Below, one piece after another: positions 1-18,202 of a stretch of DNA of 22,165 bases; within the stretch, counting starts at the first letter, position 1; every line of letters begins with the position of its first letter. The notes beneath the pieces were generated by a model, which made no database searches, was not told the origin of the DNA, and was given only the letters and a program-made list of their open reading frames with translations. The translations under genes were made by a program, and so were the position numbers. Source of the DNA: a virus; IMG/VR virus record IMGVR_UViG_3300030101_002513, positions 1 to 22,165 of that record. The stretch is one strand, 5' to 3'.

Positions 1-72
1 TGAACTATCGTCTAGTTTTCCTACGTTTCGTGGGTTTTCATAATGGTCAATGACTTTTTCACTATAGGCCAC
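1..72 (-). CDS. iscU: IscU-like Fe-S cluster scaffold protein, N-terminal fragment (runs off left edge)
   Basis: Reading the minus strand from a GTG at 72-70 gives 24 codons beginning MAYSEKVIDHYENPRNVG, then KLDDSS, open to the window edge. From memory, the first 18 residues equal the start of proteobacterial IscU, the scaffold on which [2Fe-2S] clusters are built before transfer to client proteins. The GTG directly follows the TAA of the upstream 60-codon gene, and a GGAGG (87-83) lies 10 bases before it, so the gene seems co-transcribed with the phage head genes. The cluster-binding Cys residues lie outside the window, so whether the protein is full length and active cannot be judged. A chimeric assembly is possible but made less likely by the tight junction. 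Confidence 0.8.
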   Translation of the reverse strand, partial: MAYSEKVIDHYENPRNVGKLDDSS

Positions 73-255
73 TTAGGTATAACCTCCACCTTTAGCCTTA
101 TATTGTTTAGCAAGCATTTGGGCTTTACGTGCTGACCACTGACCAGATTTGCCTCCTTTTGATCCTGCTTTAATACGGTTAAACATATTTTTACGCATGG
201 TAGGTTTAGTATAGTTTCCAGCTTCGTTTACTCTGGATTTACTTTTTCTAGCCAT
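73..255 (-). CDS. small basic protein, 60 aa, unknown function
   Basis: This short, strongly basic protein is rich in Lys, Arg, Gly and Ser, with no membrane segment. Its C-terminal half carries a KGGKSGQWSARKAQMLAK stretch that I associate with small uncharacterised proteins found beside phage head genes; I cannot name a function. The ATG overlaps the TAA of the portal gene (TAATG), which suggests translational coupling, and its own TAA is followed at once by the GTG of the iscU-like gene. The basic character would suit a nucleic-acid-binding or minor head protein, but that is inference. Confidence 0.75.
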   Translation of the reverse strand: MARKSKSRVNEAGNYTKPTMRKNMFNRIKAGSKGGKSGQWSARKAQMLAKQYKAKGGGYT

Positions 256-2297
256 TAAGAAACTCCTGCTGTTGGTGGACGAATAGGGGTAACTGCTGGT
301 TGTTGCGGTTGTGTAGGTTGTGTGTTCTGTTCTTTAACCGCTATGTCTCGTTCTTTTAACAACTGGTCAGAAAGTTTTACCCTACGTTCAAACTCTTTAT
401 CGTCTTCAGTTCCAGCCTTAAGGTTTGTTGTAATGGCTTTAAGACGATCAATCTGAACTTCTTCAGGAATAACCTGAGTTTCAACTGCCAACTTAGCTGC
501 CCTTGCAGATGCTTCTTGTGCCTGACTATTAAGAGCCGTAGTCTGGGATCTTTGAAACTCAATCTGAGCTTGTGCTGCTTGTTGCTCCAACTGTTGTCTT
601 TGCTGTTGAGCTTGTGGATCAGGTTGGTTAGCTTGCCTAAGTTGTTGCATAGCAGCAATAAGAACTTCACGGTTACTCAAAGACATATTGTCAATAATGG
701 CTTCCGTAAGTTGTATCTTGATAGGATTATCGTCACCCATAGTTTGCAACAACTGGGTTAACTGGGCAATCTCGTATTCTCTAGCAACAACCCCAAGGGA
801 ACTAGACGCTATAAACTTGTAGTCACCTACTGGATAAAGCTCTGGTTCAAACTGCATATACCTGTGGGCTACCTTGGTAACAAAAGGTAACAGGAAAGAC
901 TCTTGGAAATTTATCAGGGTTCGTTTGTGTCTTTTTATAATACTGCCAAGACCCATAGAAAAACCAGCGGCTGATCTTGTGTCTGAACCTGCGGTTGTGC
1001 CTGAAGGATCTACTGCACCTGTAGCAGTCTGCACCATCTGTTGTAGTGCTTCAGCTTGTGCAAAGGTAATCTGGTTAACCTGACCAAAGTTAAATGGCTG
1101 TAGTGTCTCAGAAGGATTACCATTGGTTAAAATTACTTTACCTGCTCTTACTTCTGGTTTAGAACCTCTAGGCATCCTTGAGGCATCCATGGCTAACATG
1201 GGATGTATAGTAAGTGCTAAAGCATCTATACGAGCTCGTAGTTCTGCGTCTAACGCCTTTTGTGAGTTGTAGCCTTTCTCACATATACCCCTACCCCAGA
1301 AACGGCTAGGAACAACATCAAAAGGGAAAGCAATAACAGGACGATCCTGCATCATGTATGGGTTTTCTTCTGCTTTTAACAATATTCCTTTATTTGCTAA
1401 AACAATAATAGCTTCAACATAAAAACTCTTTTCAGAGTCCTCATCGTCTTCTACCAGTGTTTCAACTTCTTCATCGAGCTCTCCACCTAGTAAGCCTTCT
1501 TGTTGTGCTTTTTCAAGTAAGTGTCGTGGAACGAGCCCATAGTAAGTTGTTTTACGGATTTTGTTGTCATCATAAATATTACTTAGTTCACGATCAGGTT
1601 CAATATCTGAATCATAGTAACTAGATTCTAAATCAACATCCCTGTAAACCCCTTGTTCCTGAAGTATTTCAACAGAATGTTTAGGAACAAACTCCTCAAT
1701 AGCTACCCCTATTGCATCATCTATAGTTGTAGCTAGAGGATCAATAAGAAAATTCTGTGGCATTATGGAACGTAACTTACAGACTGTCCGTTCTCTTATA
1801 TTTACGCCAACAGCTTGTAGATCACCTCCCATTACAGGCTCAGTTGCAGGAGCCATTTCTTTTTCATCAGATAATGTTATTTCAGCAATACCTGTACCAA
1901 AGATAGCTGAGTTTAACACACACTCTGCAATAGACTTTCTTACTTTGTTTTTAGTAAAGTCTTCATACAGTTTTTCCCTAAGTAAAACAATATCTCGATT
2001 TTCTTGATCTCCAATATCGTCCTTAATATCAAACCAACGACCTCTACCAAAAGTAGCTTCTTCAATTTCAGCTACGGTAGACTCTACTGCCTGTTGTGTA
2101 GCAGGAGATACAATTCTTGAACGCTCAGATCCTCTGGTTTTATCTTCTGTAGACCACTGACCCCTGAAAATTCGATAATATTCATCAAAAGTTGATTGAT
2201 AGTTTGTTTCAAAGTTGTTACGCCAATCGTCACACTTGTTTACAATCCAACCCTCTAAGGTTTCGTCTATAAACGTATCTTCACCATAGTTTTCCAT
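255..2297 (-). CDS. portal protein (head-to-tail connector)
   Basis: This is a 680-residue protein. The portal forms the dodecameric ring at one capsid vertex through which DNA is packaged and ejected. Support comes from its place directly after the terminase large subunit, its size, and an N-terminal segment typical of podovirus portals (SRIVSPATQQAVESTVAEI, then a stretch around FGRGRWFDI). The C-terminal 130 residues are Gln/Ala-rich and should form a long coiled coil or barrel helix. I chose the ATG at 2297, one base after the terL TAA and preceded by AGGA; an upstream in-frame ATG at 2354 would overlap terL by 56 bases and adds 19 unconserved-looking residues. It is longer than the T7 portal (about 536 residues). 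Confidence 0.85.
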   Translation of the reverse strand: MENYGEDTFIDETLEGWIVNKCDDWRNNFETNYQSTFDEYYRIFRGQWSTEDKTRGSERSRIVSPATQQAVESTVAEIEEATFGRGRWFDIKDDIGDQENRDIVLLREKLYEDFTKNKVRKSIAECVLNSAIFGTGIAEITLSDEKEMAPATEPVMGGDLQAVGVNIRERTVCKLRSIMPQNFLIDPLATTIDDAIGVAIEEFVPKHSVEILQEQGVYRDVDLESSYYDSDIEPDRELSNIYDDNKIRKTTYYGLVPRHLLEKAQQEGLLGGELDEEVETLVEDDEDSEKSFYVEAIIVLANKGILLKAEENPYMMQDRPVIAFPFDVVPSRFWGRGICEKGYNSQKALDAELRARIDALALTIHPMLAMDASRMPRGSKPEVRAGKVILTNGNPSETLQPFNFGQVNQITFAQAEALQQMVQTATGAVDPSGTTAGSDTRSAAGFSMGLGSIIKRHKRTLINFQESFLLPFVTKVAHRYMQFEPELYPVGDYKFIASSSLGVVAREYEIAQLTQLLQTMGDDNPIKIQLTEAIIDNMSLSNREVLIAAMQQLRQANQPDPQAQQQRQQLEQQAAQAQIEFQRSQTTALNSQAQEASARAAKLAVETQVIPEEVQIDRLKAITTNLKAGTEDDKEFERRVKLSDQLLKERDIAVKEQNTQPTQPQQPAVTPIRPPTAGVS

Positions 2298-2298
2298 A

Positions 2299-3555
2299 TT
2301 AATATCCTGCGTAAGCGTCCGTAAATTCGTAATCTTCTTCTTCGTAATCAACATTATAAGCTATTTGAGCTAGTTGATCTATGTAAGCTAGGCTATCTAT
2401 CAAATCATCGTGTACCATAGGGCTAGGAAACTGAAATAACTGGTCTAAAAAGGGTGTATTCCAAGAACCTTTGTTTAATTTTATGTTACCATGCTCAAAT
2501 CTACCCTGTAACGCCCAAACAACCCTGTCTGTTTTCTTTTTATTACCGTGGGTTAACTCTTCTATCCTAAAGAACCGTTGATTTTTTTTCATTAAGTCGC
2601 TAATGTAAGGTAAGACTGCGTTTTTTAACGCTCCTTTTTCTATTCCTACGGATACTGGAGAATAATCCCTGACTACTTCAAAGATTTTTCTAGCAGTTTC
2701 CTGTACTCCCCATCTACCGTGGACTATTGTTGATACCCACCAGCCCTCAGTTCCGGCTTTTACGACTGAAATAGCTGTTTCGTCCAGATGATTACTTTTG
2801 GTTTTGTTTTTATTAACATCTATAAAACCAGCAAGGTCAACTGAGACATAGTATTCGCCTTCGTCTGGTTCTTTTTCATCAAATATAACGTATTCTTCTT
2901 TGAAAAGCTCTGATCCCTGTGCTTCAAAGGAAGCCAAGAACTCCTGTCGATAGGAGTAACGTGACATTGACTTTTCTGCTGCTTCGATTTCCTTGGGATC
3001 AAGCAAGGGGTTATCAAAACTGGTAAAATGCCAACTTTTAAAATCAGGATCATCCTCAGTTAACTTGGCGTAGGTATACAAATCATAAAAATGATTTCTA
3101 CCCATAGGTGTACCAATAAATAACGCATGGCCCTTTTGGTCAGCTAGGGCAGGTCTGAGGATCTGTTCCCAGACTTCAGGCTTCATGTCAGCGTATTCAT
3201 CCATACATAGGAACTTAAGGCTGACACCACGCATTGTTTCTGGTCTATCTGCACCCTTTAGTGCAATAGTGCATCCATTAACCAACTTAATATGCAAATT
3301 GTTAACGTGAGAAGAAGCAATAACCCCGTGTCCAAGATCAAGGAGAAGGCTCCACATAATGTCTCTGGCTTGTCCTTGGGTGGGAGCGACATAAAATACC
3401 TGACCTGATTTTTCATTTAAAGCATTAATGATAAGTAACCAAGCAGCCAGCCTTGATTTACCTGTACGCCTACCAGCAGCAATAACCTTAAATCTGGTTT
3501 TATCTGCAAAGACATCTTGTTGCCAAGGTAATAGCTCTACCTTAAGATCAGTCAC
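2299..3555 (-). CDS. terL: terminase large subunit (packaging ATPase/nuclease)
   Basis: This 418-residue packaging motor pumps DNA into the prohead through the portal and cuts the concatemer. The ATPase domain shows Walker A AAGRRTGKS (residues 26-34), Walker B FLCMDE with D119/E120, and the coupling motif GTP at 148-150. The C-terminal nuclease domain has an acidic residue in YYVSVDLAG (D240) and a late HDDLIDSLAY motif typical of the RNase H-like terminase nuclease. The start is GTG (3555), immediately after the TAG of the M15 peptidase gene; no strong ribosome site is seen, so coupling to the upstream gene is likely. Portal follows directly. The family is certain; the packaging type (cos, pac or direct terminal repeat) cannot be read from this. 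Confidence 0.93.
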   Translation of the reverse strand: MTDLKVELLPWQQDVFADKTRFKVIAAGRRTGKSRLAAWLLIINALNEKSGQVFYVAPTQGQARDIMWSLLLDLGHGVIASSHVNNLHIKLVNGCTIALKGADRPETMRGVSLKFLCMDEYADMKPEVWEQILRPALADQKGHALFIGTPMGRNHFYDLYTYAKLTEDDPDFKSWHFTSFDNPLLDPKEIEAAEKSMSRYSYRQEFLASFEAQGSELFKEEYVIFDEKEPDEGEYYVSVDLAGFIDVNKNKTKSNHLDETAISVVKAGTEGWWVSTIVHGRWGVQETARKIFEVVRDYSPVSVGIEKGALKNAVLPYISDLMKKNQRFFRIEELTHGNKKKTDRVVWALQGRFEHGNIKLNKGSWNTPFLDQLFQFPSPMVHDDLIDSLAYIDQLAQIAYNVDYEEEDYEFTDAYAGY

Positions 3556-10404: not shown

Positions 10405-10689
10405 ATGGAATGTTCAAACAGAAAAGGAGACTTTGCAGAATACTACGCTGTTACATGGTTATGGGATCAGGGGTACGAAGTTTTTAAAAACTGTGGATCT
10501 ACTGGAATGATTGATATGATAGCTATGAAAGATAACGACATAAAACTGATTGATGTAAAAACCCAGAGGGTGGTTACAAGAGGGAGAGGACTAAGTGAAA
10601 AACAAAAAAAACTGGGGGTCTGTATGTTAATGTTTGACCCAGAGACTCGTAATTTAGCTTTTAGGAAGCATAGACATGAAACATATTGA
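10405..10689 (+). CDS. small PD-(D/E)XK endonuclease / resolvase-like protein
   Basis: This 94-residue protein has the order of a compact PD-(D/E)XK nuclease: GDFAEYYAVTWLWDQGYEV with E12, then GMIDMIA with D37, then LIDVKT with D50 and K52. This is the layout of small Holliday-junction-resolvase-like and restriction-like nucleases that bind Mg2+ with these acidic residues. Start ATG 10405 is preceded by TAAGGAG. It overlaps the next nuclease gene by 14 bases. The substrate is unknown; processing of recombination intermediates or host DNA breakdown would fit its place among replication genes. Confidence 0.75.
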   Translation: MECSNRKGDFAEYYAVTWLWDQGYEVFKNCGSTGMIDMIAMKDNDIKLIDVKTQRVVTRGRGLSEKQKKLGVCMLMFDPETRNLAFRKHRHETY

Positions 10690-11524
10690 AACTTTGATAC
10701 AGGATATTTACAAAGTCGTAGCAACCAAAGAGGTTGATGAGAAAATCGATGTAGAAGCAGAGATAGAAAAGTTTGGCGAAAATGTCAAAACGCTGATGCG
10801 TACTGAGTTTGGAAGGAATCGTAAACGAGATACAAGAAAACTCAGGTTATCCTCTATTGGCAGAGAAGACAAGTTTATATGGAATCAGTTCCATGGAACA
10901 CTAGCGGAAAAGATAATGCCTCACACTTTCGTCAAGTTTATGTATGGACACTTGATTGAGGAAATGATTTTGTTCTTAGCACGAGTAGCTGGACACACAG
11001 TTACGGACGAACAAAAAGAGTGTAATGTAGAAGGGGTAAAAGGGCATATGGACTGTAGAATAGATGGCGTGGTTACTGATGTAAAATCAGCCTCTTCCTA
11101 CGGTTTCAAAAAGTTCAAGTACGGCAACATTGCGGATAATGATGATTTTGGCTATGTAGATCAACTAAGGGCATATGCTCATTCTGAAGGTGAAAAGGAG
11201 TTTGGTTGGTTAGCCATGGACAAACAGAATGGACACTTAACTTATTTGAAAAGACACATGGATGATTTTGAAGGAGATATAGCAGAGAGAGTTCGCCATG
11301 TAAAAAAGCTCGTAGAACAACCGGAGCCCTTGGAATACTGTTTTCAACCAGTACCGGATGGAAAATCAGGAAACTTAAAGTTGGCTATTGGTTGTTCATA
11401 CTGCCAGTTCAAGAGGCATTGCTACACAGACTTAAGAGCCTTCAGATATTCTCAAGGAATAAAGTTTCTAAGTAAGGTGGTAAATGAACCAAAAGTAGAG
11501 GAGATACCTTTACATGAAATTTAA
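10676..11524 (+). CDS. RecB/Cas4-like exonuclease with C-terminal Cys cluster
   Basis: This 282-residue protein is a PD-(D/E)XK nuclease of the RecB/Cas4 type. Visible motifs are GHLIEE (H92, E95/E96), GHMD (D126), TDVKS (D135, K137) and the RecB-type QxxxY in DQLRAYA (Q163, Y167). Near the C-terminus is C240-x2-C243-x5-C249, the spacing of the Cys triad that holds a [4Fe-4S] cluster in Cas4 and AddB-type nucleases; C222 or C116 could be the fourth ligand, since no N-terminal CPR-like Cys is present. It may serve the role of the T7 gp6 exonuclease in DNA degradation and recombination. It overlaps both neighbouring nuclease genes. A zinc site is the alternative to Fe-S. Confidence 0.8.
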   Translation: MKHIETLIQDIYKVVATKEVDEKIDVEAEIEKFGENVKTLMRTEFGRNRKRDTRKLRLSSIGREDKFIWNQFHGTLAEKIMPHTFVKFMYGHLIEEMILFLARVAGHTVTDEQKECNVEGVKGHMDCRIDGVVTDVKSASSYGFKKFKYGNIADNDDFGYVDQLRAYAHSEGEKEFGWLAMDKQNGHLTYLKRHMDDFEGDIAERVRHVKKLVEQPEPLEYCFQPVPDGKSGNLKLAIGCSYCQFKRHCYTDLRAFRYSQGIKFLSKVVNEPKVEEIPLHEI

Positions 11525-11885
11525 ATACAGATCAGGTCTTGAAGAAAAGACCGGAGTAAAGCTAACCAAGGATTATCTTTATGAGCCCTATCAGATACCT
11601 TACATTGTCAACCGTAACTATCTACCGGACTTTGTACATGAAGAAAAGAAAGTCCTGATAGAATGTAAGGGATTCTTCAGGTCAGGAGATATACAGAAAT
11701 ACAAAGCTATCAGGGATTATCTTCCAGAATGGGAACTTATCTTTGTTCTGAGTAACTTTAACAAAAAGATAAGAAAAAATAGTAAGACAACAATGAAGGA
11801 ATGGATGGACAAAGAGGGTTTTTTATGTTATACTATTAATATGATTGATGAACTTAAGAAATACATAAGGCAGAAAAAACCATGA
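11514..11885 (+). CDS. endonuclease I, Holliday-junction resolvase (T7 gp3-like)
   Basis: This 123-residue protein matches T7 endonuclease I along its length: YRSGLEEK at the start, LPDFV in the middle, LIECKG, then a basic SNFNKKIRKNSKTT segment. The expected catalytic residues of this family are E10, D39, E50 and K52. The enzyme dimerises and resolves branched DNA, and in T7 it also breaks host DNA to supply nucleotides. It is slightly shorter than T7 gp3 (149), lacking N- and C-terminal extensions. Its start overlaps the previous gene by 11 bases, and its stop overlaps the next ATG (ATGA). A promoter lies inside its 3' end. Confidence 0.9.
   Translation: MKFKYRSGLEEKTGVKLTKDYLYEPYQIPYIVNRNYLPDFVHEEKKVLIECKGFFRSGDIQKYKAIRDYLPEWELIFVLSNFNKKIRKNSKTTMKEWMDKEGFLCYTINMIDELKKYIRQKKP
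11806..11834 (+). promoter_or_regulatory. second rightward sigma70 promoter, inside the endonuclease gene
   Basis: TGGACA (11806-11811), 17 bases, then TATACT (11829-11834) with an extended -10 TGT. The region 11825-11846 repeats 6600-6621 with one mismatch, although it codes for protein here. It would drive the 57-residue gene, the DUF3310 gene and the ribonucleotide reductase separately from the replication genes. Confidence 0.75.
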
Positions 11886-12296: not shown

Positions 12297-12499
12297 CTTT
12301 TAAACTATTGCAAATGATGTGGACTTTTAATTTTAGATGGGGCATAGGTTTTGATGTTGAGGCAACTGATGGCCGTCCGGTATGGACAGTCATCGATAAT
12401 TCTGATATAATAACACCTATGGCTTTTGATGGTTTAGTTGTTTTAGTACCATTCATTTGTTTAACTATTGGGAACGTACACACACTAGAGGATATGTAG
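12293..12499 (+). CDS. small protein with one hydrophobic segment, 68 aa, unknown
   Basis: This frame starts at an ATG that overlaps the DUF3310 stop (ATGA) and ends two bases before the ribonucleotide reductase start. The N-terminal half is aromatic-rich (MMWTFNFRWGIGF), and residues about 43-60 (MAFDGLVVLVPFICLTIG) could cross a membrane once. No family is recognised. The tight tiling supports it as real. A membrane-associated accessory protein is one option; a frame kept open by chance is less likely. Confidence 0.55.
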   Translation: MTFKLLQMMWTFNFRWGIGFDVEATDGRPVWTVIDNSDIITPMAFDGLVVLVPFICLTIGNVHTLEDM

Positions 12500-12501
12500 G
12501 G

Positions 12502-14394
12502 ATGGATCAGTATCAACAATTTATACACAAGTCACGTTACGCTAGGTGGCTACCTGAGGAAAACCGTAGGGAAACTTGGACAGAAACTGTCAACAGGTAC
12601 GTAAACTTCTGGGTGGACAGAAAACAGATAGGGGCTTCAACAGCGGCAGAACTTAAAGCAGCTATTAAAAACCTAGACGTTATGCCTTCTATGCGTTGTA
12701 TGATGACAGCAGGAGAAGCTCTGGACAAAGATAATGTAGCAGGGTTTAACTGTAGTTACCTACACATAGATAGCCCCAGATGTTTTGATGAATTGATGTA
12801 TGTGTTGATGTGTGGCACTGGGGTTGGATTCAGCGTGGAACGTGGGTTCATCAATAAGATGCCTATAGTTGCTGAAGAGTTTTTCCCTACGGATACAACC
12901 ATTGTTGTTGCTGACAGTAAGATAGGATGGGCTAGTGCTTTTAGAGAATTGATTAGCTTACTGTACGCAGGGAAGATACCTAAATGGGACATGAGAAAGA
13001 TCAGACCTGCTGGAGCTAGGCTAAAGACATTTGGAGGCAGAGCTAGTGGGCCTGATCCTTTGGTTGATCTATTTAATTTCTGTGTGGAGGTATTCCAGAA
13101 AGCAGCAGGACGCAAACTTAACTCGATTGAGTGTCACGATATATGTTGTAAGATTGCAGATATTGTCGTTGTTGGTGGGGTTCGCAGGTCAGCTTTGATT
13201 AGCCTGTCGAACCTTTCTGACCCTAGAATGGCTAGGGCTAAGTCAGGCCAGTGGTGGGAAACAGAGCCCCAGAGAAGACTAGCAAATAATTCTGTAGCCT
13301 ACACAGAGAAACCTGACTTTGAATCATTCCTGTCTGAGATGAAAAACATCTATGAAAGTAAAGCAGGTGAGCGTGGAATCTTCAGCAGGGTAGCAGCACA
13401 AAACATTGCAGGTAGGAATGGACGTAGAGATCCAGAGCAGGATTTTGGTACTAATCCATGTTCAGAAATAATACTTAGATCCAATCAATTCTGTAATTTA
13501 TCTGAGGTTGTAATACGTCCTGAGGATACTTTGGATGACCTTAAGAGAAAGGTACGTCTAGCGTCCATCATAGGGACTCTACAAGCCACTTTAACGGACT
13601 TTAGATACCTAAGGAATAGCTGGAGAAGGAACACAGAAGAAGAGGCTCTATTGGGCGTTTCCTTGACCGGTATCATGGATCATAAAATACTGGGTAATGT
13701 GTCTGAAGCAGAGCTTGAGTTTGGCCCTAATAAAAATTGGTTACAGGAGATGAGGGATGTTGCTATCGAAACTAATAAAGTCTGGGCTGGAAAGCTGGGC
13801 ATCAATCAGTCAACCGCTATTACGTGTGTTAAACCTAGCGGCACTGTTTCTCAGCTTGTTAATAGTGCCAGTGGGATTCATCCTCGCTATGCAGACTTTT
13901 ATATCCGTAGGGTTCGTAGCGACAATAAAGACCCTCTTGCTAGTTTCATGTCTAACAGGGGTTTTCCTGTGGAGCCTGACGTAATGTCTCCACAGTCTTT
14001 AGTTTTTTCTTTCCCTGTCAAGGCTCCTAAGACTTCTACATCAGCTAACGAAGTTACAGCACTAGATCAACTAGAGTTGTGGAAGGTGTATCAGAATAAA
14101 TGGTGTGAACATAAACCCAGTATTACAGTTTACTACAGGGACGATGAGTTTCTGGAGGTAGCCCAGTGGATCTGGGATAACTTTGACTTGTGTAGTGGGA
14201 TTGCTTTGTTGCCTTACAGTGACCACGTATATCAACAGGCTCCCTACGAGCAGATTACTGAAAAGAAGTATGAAGAGTTGTTAGCTCAGATGCCCAAAGA
14301 CGTAGATTGGACTGAGCTTGAAGAGTTTGAAACTGAAGATAATACTACAGGGTCACAGGAGTTAGCCTGTGTAGGAGGTGCGTGTGAGCTTTGA
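12502..14394 (+). CDS. nrdJ: class II (adenosylcobalamin-dependent) ribonucleotide reductase
   Basis: This 630-residue enzyme would reduce ribonucleotides to deoxyribonucleotides for phage DNA synthesis, using host vitamin B12. It resembles the monomeric class II type: PSMRCMMTAGEALDKDNVAG followed by FNCSYL (C84), NPCSEI with N318, C320 (thiyl radical site) and E322, NQFCNLSEV (C331), and a C-terminal Cys pair C623-x4-C628 that recycles the active-site disulfide. No nrdB-type radical subunit is nearby, as expected for class II. It is shorter than the Lactobacillus enzyme (about 739). ATG 12502 is preceded by AGAGGA; an in-frame ATG at 12457 inside the previous gene is rejected. Confidence 0.92.
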   Translation: MDQYQQFIHKSRYARWLPEENRRETWTETVNRYVNFWVDRKQIGASTAAELKAAIKNLDVMPSMRCMMTAGEALDKDNVAGFNCSYLHIDSPRCFDELMYVLMCGTGVGFSVERGFINKMPIVAEEFFPTDTTIVVADSKIGWASAFRELISLLYAGKIPKWDMRKIRPAGARLKTFGGRASGPDPLVDLFNFCVEVFQKAAGRKLNSIECHDICCKIADIVVVGGVRRSALISLSNLSDPRMARAKSGQWWETEPQRRLANNSVAYTEKPDFESFLSEMKNIYESKAGERGIFSRVAAQNIAGRNGRRDPEQDFGTNPCSEIILRSNQFCNLSEVVIRPEDTLDDLKRKVRLASIIGTLQATLTDFRYLRNSWRRNTEEEALLGVSLTGIMDHKILGNVSEAELEFGPNKNWLQEMRDVAIETNKVWAGKLGINQSTAITCVKPSGTVSQLVNSASGIHPRYADFYIRRVRSDNKDPLASFMSNRGFPVEPDVMSPQSLVFSFPVKAPKTSTSANEVTALDQLELWKVYQNKWCEHKPSITVYYRDDEFLEVAQWIWDNFDLCSGIALLPYSDHVYQQAPYEQITEKKYEELLAQMPKDVDWTELEEFETEDNTTGSQELACVGGACEL

Positions 14395-16134: not shown

Positions 16135-18190
16135 TAGTTCCCCTTACAAAGTTTCTAAGTTCAGCTTGTTCTTCTTGAGTCATTCCATCAATAACATCAC
16201 CTAAAATAATATTAATAGCTAAGTTACGTTTATCTTCTGTGGCAAAATTTTGTTTTTCAAAAGCAACTAATTTATTAACTGCTTTGGGATTAGTTGCCAT
16301 TTTAGCAAACACATAAGGTATTGTTAAGATTCCCATAGCTGTAGCAACATCTCCTGCTGATGCTGCTGCTCCAGCCGCAGAAGGTAGAATTATACCTCCA
16401 AGAGTTTGTGGAACTCCATATTCTTTAGCTCTTAGTAAAAGAGTTGCTATGTTTCCATCTGGATTTTTTGAAGCCTCTGACATAGTATTAAACAACTGTT
16501 TAACTTTTTTGTAATCAGTTTTACTTCGGTTTAACACTTGAAACAAAGTAGCGTTTTTTGACGGATCATTAAAAGTTTCTGCTAGTTTTGCGTATTGATT
16601 AATATCAAATGCTTTACTTGAAAAATCTGGAATTAACGAAGTTAAATATCCTTGAGAAATTAATTTTTTTGCTTCTTCAGCAGACTGTATTACTCCTTTG
16701 TCACCTGTTCGTGAAGCGGTTGCTAAAGGAGCTTTTTTTAAAGTAGAAAAAGATTGATCGATACTTCTATAAAATTGTTTAAAAGCCTCACTATCAGCAT
16801 CTATTTTTGTTAAAAAATTTCCTAATTGTTCATAGGAACCTTTATTAGCGTTTCTAATAAAACTTTTACTTACATTAGGTAATAAGTTCTCAATATGTTT
16901 TTTATACTCAGCTTGCATTTGTTTATATTTAGTTCCTGCTTTAGGATCAACTTGGTTTAAAGTATCAATTATACCTGTTCTAATTTTATCACGTAATTCT
17001 GTAAGTTGTATAATTGATTGATCGAAACCGCCAGCCTCTGTTTTGGCTGCTTTAGTAAAATCGTTAATTTTATTACCAATAAGTTTATCTATTTCTAGCA
17101 GGTTACTAGCCCCTATTTTTGTGTTTGTACCATCAAAGAAAACTTGTAATAATTCTTTTTCAATGTAGTTTTTTGCTGGTGTTGCTAATAAACTAAAAGG
17201 TTGGGCTGCTGTTCTTTGTTGCGAGTTAACATAAGAATTAATTTGATTGAATATAAACCTAGTATCAACCATTTGATTTCCAACTAACTCTGAAATTTCT
17301 TTTAAACGCAATCCGTACACTTCGTTACCTGCTTTTCTCCCTGCTTCTATAACTTCAGATATAACTAAACCTAAATCGGCAGATCCAACTTCAAACTTAG
17401 GATTTCCTATAACTTCTTCAAGTGTTTGTTGAACTGCTCTATTAACTTGTTGTTCTGCTCCTTCTATGACATTACCGGAAAAAATTCCTGCTGACCCTAT
17501 ATTTTCCGCTATTTTATCAAAAGGGGTAGCTACTTTAGCTTGAGATCGTGTAAGAGTCGCTCCTCTTTCTTGGAGCAATTCCTGAGTTTTTCTTAAAGAT
17601 TCTGGTTCGCCAGCAAAAGAAGTTTTAGGAATATCACTTTTTATTAGATTTTCAATTTGATCTGCTGCTTCTTCTGGAGAAAACCCAAGTTTTTTCTTAG
17701 CTAAAGGTATTAAAGGATCAATATATTTACTTAATTTTAATGTAGCTAGGTCTATTCCTGCACCCATTAAAGCACTGTACGTAGCTTCCATAAAGTCTAC
17801 GTCTTCTTCTCCATACCCTTGTTTTATAAGAGTACCTGCAAAATCTCCCAAAGCACTTCCTACAGTTGAACCAACAGCAATACCTACAGGCCCACCAAAA
17901 GCTCCTACAGCACCTCCTACGAATGAACCTGCCGTTGATAGACTAATATCAGGATTTTCAACTGCTGCTTGTCCTACTTTACGTACCATCCTACCTGCAC
18001 CTGCACCAAACAGTTCTTCTTGTGGTTCTGATTTTACAGATACGTTTGCTGCATCCCAAAATGCTTGTGTAGCATAACCTTGTGATATAGAAAAATCTTT
18101 TAATACTTCAGGAGTTATATCTTTAGGTACAACAGCAATTCCATTAGGAAACTTTATTGTTTGCAAGTTTTCACTGTTTATTTGTGTCAT
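16118..18190 (-). CDS. putative internal virion / DNA-ejection protein with glycine zipper, 690 aa
   Basis: Residues about 86-125 form a long glycine-zipper-like hydrophobic stretch (AGSFVGGAVGAFGGPVGIAV and onward), a pattern seen in membrane-inserting proteins. Another hydrophobic, Ala/Gly-rich segment lies near 615-655 (GGIILPSAAGAAASAGDVA). The middle, about 180-600, is helical and charged. Size, order and composition fit the largest internal core or ejection protein of a podovirus, which inserts into the host envelope to let DNA through. No lytic transglycosylase motif is recognised. ATG 18190 is preceded by AAAGGAA. The codons look AT-richer than in the replication genes. Confidence 0.65.
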   Translation of the reverse strand: MTQINSENLQTIKFPNGIAVVPKDITPEVLKDFSISQGYATQAFWDAANVSVKSEPQEELFGAGAGRMVRKVGQAAVENPDISLSTAGSFVGGAVGAFGGPVGIAVGSTVGSALGDFAGTLIKQGYGEEDVDFMEATYSALMGAGIDLATLKLSKYIDPLIPLAKKKLGFSPEEAADQIENLIKSDIPKTSFAGEPESLRKTQELLQERGATLTRSQAKVATPFDKIAENIGSAGIFSGNVIEGAEQQVNRAVQQTLEEVIGNPKFEVGSADLGLVISEVIEAGRKAGNEVYGLRLKEISELVGNQMVDTRFIFNQINSYVNSQQRTAAQPFSLLATPAKNYIEKELLQVFFDGTNTKIGASNLLEIDKLIGNKINDFTKAAKTEAGGFDQSIIQLTELRDKIRTGIIDTLNQVDPKAGTKYKQMQAEYKKHIENLLPNVSKSFIRNANKGSYEQLGNFLTKIDADSEAFKQFYRSIDQSFSTLKKAPLATASRTGDKGVIQSAEEAKKLISQGYLTSLIPDFSSKAFDINQYAKLAETFNDPSKNATLFQVLNRSKTDYKKVKQLFNTMSEASKNPDGNIATLLLRAKEYGVPQTLGGIILPSAAGAAASAGDVATAMGILTIPYVFAKMATNPKAVNKLVAFEKQNFATEDKRNLAINIILGDVIDGMTQEEQAELRNFVRGTNEPVQ

Positions 18191-18202
18191 ACAAAGTTCC
18201 TT

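Follow-up and report, generated by a model that had tools for sequence, protein, structure and literature searches.

The stretch of DNA analysed here (the window), a complete virus record consisting of a linear fragment of 22,165 bases, appears to end inside a genuine phage-borne iscU gene, whose product would be an orthodox IscU scaffold able to plug into the host machinery. We put the probability of this reading, its parts taken jointly, at roughly 0.7. The window itself shows only 24 codons of iscU (to residue 24); we infer the remainder of the gene from a second contig, L455, in which a full-length iscU has phage genes on both sides. The proposal of a preliminary description of this DNA, that a phage late operon carries iscU, is borne out by L455.

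The iscU junction in the window and in L455

Read on the minus strand from 72 to 1, the contig end translates, as GTG plus 23 codons, into MAYSEKVIDHYENPRNVGKLDDSS. This fragment matches PF01592 (NifU_N/IscU) with 27.5 bits (E 2e-7), above the Pfam cut-off of 22 bits, and PHROG 8429, 'NifU-like Fe-S cluster assembly protein', with E 2.4e-6. The IscU-like N-terminus described earlier holds at 18 of 18 residues: residues 1-18 are identical to E. coli-type IscU (alignment with 2l4x). In SAR92 bacterium H231, the first 24 residues of IscU are the same as in the window (24/24). The tight junction described earlier, in which iscU has its own GGAGG, is likewise seen: the GTG (72-70) abuts the TAA of the 60-aa gene (73-75) without a gap, and GGAGG stands at 87-83. 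The claim that iscU lies beside the portal gene stands as far as the operon is concerned, which is one and the same phage operon, but a 60-aa basic gene separates the two (Table 1). No RNA families or tRNAs were found in the window.

Table 1. Window features discussed in the text, with the basis of each assignment
Feature	Position	Strand	Basis
iscU 5' end, GTG start at 72-70, 24 codons, then contig end	1..72	-	PF01592, PHROG 8429, L455 counterpart
GGAGG, probable ribosome-binding site of iscU, within 3' end of 60-aa gene	83..87	-	Sequence; 10 bases 5' of GTG
60-aa gene for a basic protein of phrog_17747 (function unknown), immediately 5' of iscU	73..255	-	PHROG E 3.1e-36; 95% identical in L002
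Portal protein gene; the ATG at 2300 is its likely true start	255..2354	-	SU10_portal/P22_portal, phrog_1216
Terminase large subunit gene	2299..3555	-	Terminase_6N/6C, phrog_2
Cas4-domain exonuclease, four conserved Cys (222, 240, 243, 249), possible Fe-S client	10676..11524	+	phrog_1990 E 7e-35
Class II (adenosylcobalamin-dependent) ribonucleotide reductase (RNR)	12457..14394	+	RTPR 327 bits, slightly below cut-off; Pfam RNR domains

The portal, terminase and polymerase of the window are all far from those of any isolate; the best portal match among isolates reaches 20-28% identity and the best polymerase match, in Pelagibacter phage HTVC104P, 51%. The phage lineage is uncultivated, with metagenomes as its only source, and a distant kin of the HMO-2011/HTVC103P group. 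A T7 endonuclease I-like gene (PF05367) lies at 11514-11885, directly after the Cas4-like nuclease gene. In a relative of the window, L002, a large protein encoded downstream of the capsid genes (17700-18200) has long Pro-Glu repeats (PEPEPEP...).

L455 was found by a degenerate pattern spanning the junction of the 60-aa gene and iscU, and is the sole other contig in the viral collection to match it. Phage genes flank its iscU: the portal gene and the 60-aa gene upstream and, downstream and in this order, an 81-aa basic gene, an 88-aa gene, a 53-aa gene and the scaffold and capsid genes. The encoded protein of 129 aa scores 218.8 bits against the TIGR01999 iscU equivalog model (cut-off 192.4) and below the respective cut-offs of the NifU and SufU models; its alignment to solved IscU structures covers 125 residues. 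All cluster sites are kept (C37, D39, C63, H105 and C106), and the same three Cys, Asp and His are kept in related phage IscUs; an apparent Cys loss in a few viral IscU rows, which short deletions probably produced by shifting the numbering, was left unused. L455 IscU carries LPPVKIHC, with the HscA motif LPPVK at 99-103, and LPPVK is also present in the IscUs of L148, L220, L230, L228 and L260. The preliminary description had proposed looking for a full IscU of about 128 aa with its three Cys, and for host isc genes following directly. The L455 protein, with its three Cys, is neither truncated nor Cys-less, and phage genes come next in place of iscA or hscB; on this ground we rejected the idea that the contig runs out into an isc operon of the host.

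The two iscU genes open with different start codons, GTG in the window and TTG in L455; among the 80 bacterial iscU genes examined, just one has a non-ATG start. The two starts share 64 of 72 bases and, in the 23 codons after the start codon, differ at 7 synonymous and 0 non-synonymous sites.

History of the insert and its probable donor

L002 has no iscU at this site, and its DNA is 98.8% identical to that of L455 over 1.9 kb on one side of the insert and 4.2 kb on the other. In neighbouring genes, DNA identity is 88% between the window and L002 and 84% between the window and L455, and the divergence of the iscU starts lies near that of the surrounding genes. This fits common ancestry of the insert: we infer that iscU was inherited from a common ancestor, and that L002 either lost it or acquired an allele without it by exchange. 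At the right seam in L455, iscU overlaps the 5' end of the 81-aa gene, where its stop codon lies; both genes open with ATGGC, a common stretch that could have served recombination.

Between L148 and L100, iscU has a dS of 0.70 and a dN of 0.018, a pattern of substitutions that shows phage iscU to be under purifying selection. The G+C content is 37.4% in L455 iscU, 37.3% in the L455 contig and 51.9% at the SAR92 H231 locus; the phage-like composition of the gene suggests long residence in phage. On the IscU tree, the protein closest to that of L455 is from Porticoccaceae NAT43 (90% identical), and the closest bacterial IscUs are those of Porticoccaceae/SAR92 and related Cellvibrionales. The donor would be a gammaproteobacterium of Porticoccaceae/SAR92 type. 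This group is probably also the host of the uncultivated phage lineage, a guess that is tentative because the tree support around L455 is modest (81-82). As for a single origin of the phage iscU genes, the 15 phage rows of the tree require 8 changes; a tree constrained to unite all phage rows is nevertheless not clearly rejected (p 0.0565), and one that unites L455 with the L148 group is not rejected (p 0.288).

An assembly chimera, in which the end of a phage contig was joined to a host iscU, would account for an IscU match at the extreme contig end and for the high DNA similarity between the window and L002, which ends exactly at the TAA of the 60-aa gene; by itself, this break is compatible with an insertion or a chimera. 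What decides the matter is L455, an independent contig with the same junction and phage genes on both flanks. Moreover, the window and L455 differ synonymously and in the start codon, and are thus not one misjoined sequence, and start codons other than ATG are rare among the bacterial iscU genes examined; a chimera is ruled out for practical purposes. We also considered that iscU might be an inactive passenger, that is, a gene taken from a host not long ago and now drifting in a variable phage slot, a reading that agrees with the varied inserts held by relatives between the 60-aa and 81-aa genes and with the absence of iscU from L002. This is very improbable: start codon aside, the window and L455 show synonymous differences only, dN/dS is far below 1 for pairs of phage iscU genes, the G+C of iscU matches that of the phage, and the gene recurs in many related phages. 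On the contigs compared, three other accounts of the window's iscU (chimera, pseudogene and host isc operon) are either excluded or very unlikely.

iscU in other marine phages and its changing neighbours

Six marine environmental viral genomes with iscU have been described (Nishimura et al. 2017, PMC5332604), and iscU and erpA are found in HMO-2011-type phage genomes (PMC9038755); Fe-S supply is discussed in both reports. In the viral collection, a pattern for AYSEKVIDHYENP is matched by at least 120 stretches. The earlier view that iscU in a phage is striking is weakened by the two reports and by the number of viral stretches bearing the gene. The iscU of the window and L455 is a well-supported further case of a known marine phage auxiliary gene, not a new kind of system; since iscU is already published in marine phages, the useful part is the clean pair with and without the gene.

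The genomes of Nishimura et al. resemble ours in that a proteobacterial-type iscU serves as marine phage auxiliary gene and the viral IscUs group with gammaproteobacteria; Cas4 is named there as an Fe-S protein. They include a SAR86-like case and were compared with Pelagibacter phage HTVC008M and T4-like genomes, whereas the window and L455 represent a different lineage, with a Porticoccaceae/SAR92-type IscU encoded downstream of the portal gene. The HMO-2011-type phages are also a marine group with iscU, and their portal is distantly related to that of the window (20-23% identity). In contigs with a more distant portal (L324, L327 and L344), IscU is only 52-56% identical to the phage IscUs described here. 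Bacterial IscUs (E. coli 2l4x and SAR92 H231) and the phage protein have the same length class and catalytic residues. Unlike its bacterial counterparts, however, the phage gene lies outside an isc operon, begins with a codon other than ATG in close coupling to a phage gene and, in L455, has its stop codon within the next phage gene.

An IscA-like gene is present in the available flank of 85 among the 120 matches listed, and only 2 among the matches listed have the look of a host operon, with IscS. The strongest match in the phage collection, L202 (CAKLQF020000009.1), is filed as Acinetobacter phage MD-2021a and holds a complete iscR-iscS-iscU-iscA-hscB-hscA-fdx operon. It looks like mislabelled bacterial DNA.

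The setting of iscU was surveyed in phages that have a polymerase, helicase, nuclease or RNR related to that of the window. The gene directly follows a class II RNR gene in L220, L221, L230, L242 and L261, is accompanied by an IscA gene in L228 and L276, and adjoins the 60-aa/81-aa cassette in L148, L100, L150, L207 and L260. None of 80 portal-relative records, many of which are short fragments, matches PF01592, and we rejected, within this sample, the view that iscU is fixed in the lineage. Upstream of iscU in L148 (77-2847), and in part in L150 and L207, we observed a FecR-domain gene (PF04773) and a gene combining CHASE2 with a class III adenylate/guanylate cyclase (PF05226, PF00211), an unusual cargo for such a phage.

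The interval between the 60-aa gene and the 81-aa gene is closed (10 bases or less) in 90 of 201 locus entries, a number that includes duplicates of single contigs, and contains inserts in the others; apart from iscU, these include a methyltransferase gene and one for recombination endonuclease VII. The interval (the site after window position 73) is a variable slot with differing genes. The very basic small genes around it (window 73-255, and the 81-aa, 84/88-aa and 51/53-aa genes of L148, L002 and L455) form a cassette whose members travel as a unit, close to the head genes, in several lineages of marine phages. We may tentatively speculate, with some doubt, that this cassette is a cargo-exchange slot shared across marine phage lineages, and that iscU entered phages several times, with more than one gammaproteobacterium as donor. 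The entries would fall into three settings: the space between the 60-aa and 81-aa genes, other places of the cassette region, and the position after the class II RNR gene. If this is true, additional Fe-S scaffold would have been selected for again and again in the lineage.

Proposed role of the phage IscU

In the ISC pathway, IscU receives sulfur from IscS and assembles a [2Fe-2S] cluster on three Cys; HscA and HscB bind LPPVK and assist the hand-over of the cluster from IscU. As all cluster and partner sites are kept in the phage protein, it should fit the host machinery. We propose that iscU was captured from a Porticoccaceae/SAR92-type gammaproteobacterium and came to sit in the late operon downstream of the portal gene, between the 60-aa and 81-aa genes. 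Its product would accept sulfur from host IscS and use Cys37, Cys63 and Cys106 to assemble a [2Fe-2S] cluster, which it would hand onward with host HscA/HscB. During infection, the extra scaffold would raise the cluster-building capacity available to phage clients, for example the four-Cys Cas4-like nuclease, and the same capacity would serve host Fe-S enzymes needed until lysis. Host capture, partners, timing, clients and benefit are in this sense our reading of the sequences. Against it, the 80 portal-relative records, many of them fragments, gave no PF01592 match, and L002 shows that a phage of this kind can do without iscU.

The Cas4-like nuclease is a possible and plausible IscU client. 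Its Cys 222, 240, 243 and 249 are conserved in 19/20, 20/20, 20/20 and 20/20 sequences, respectively, the last three being spaced CxxCx5C; the protein has no match in Pfam at E 0.01. The nuclease gene lies in another, probably early, operon, and iscU in the late operon. We rejected the nuclease as the explanation for the presence of iscU: no association between the two was seen, and the four Cys are equally conserved in relatives in which iscU was not detected.

Host Fe-S enzymes are an equally good guess for the clients. A reading in which phage IscU supports these enzymes (respiration, oxidative-stress repair) and not phage proteins comes, in our estimate, somewhat short of even odds. One plausible Fe-S protein only is found among the proteins encoded in the window, viral Fe-S genes are often read in papers as aiding electron transfer or the redox response of the host (PMC7785012; PMC8940887), and the position of iscU in a late operon fits upkeep until lysis. 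However, the evidence does not directly discriminate between the two kinds of client, and the window is a fragment from which further phage Fe-S proteins may be missing. Alternatively, phage IscU might mainly compete for IscS, so that sulfur is drawn from TusA and tRNA thiolation to Fe-S assembly, altering translation or the host stress state. IscU and TusA do compete for IscS, and deletions of iscU, hscA and hscB alter lambda infection in E. coli (PMC2900299). Yet lambda infects better when iscU is deleted and worse when tus genes are deleted (PMC2900299), and extra IscU is thus expected to hurt a lambda-like phage; furthermore, pure competition for IscS would not need the cluster-binding residues, all of which are kept. 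We therefore consider this competition an unlikely main role, and retain the orthodox scaffold, with phage or host clients, as the best explanation.

A contig end of 24 codons has thus been turned into a verified phage gene, and Porticoccaceae/SAR92 is pointed to as a likely host group for an uncultivated lineage. L455 and L002, whose flanks are 98.8% identical, form a natural pair with and without iscU, which makes the benefit that a phage may draw from its own IscU directly testable.
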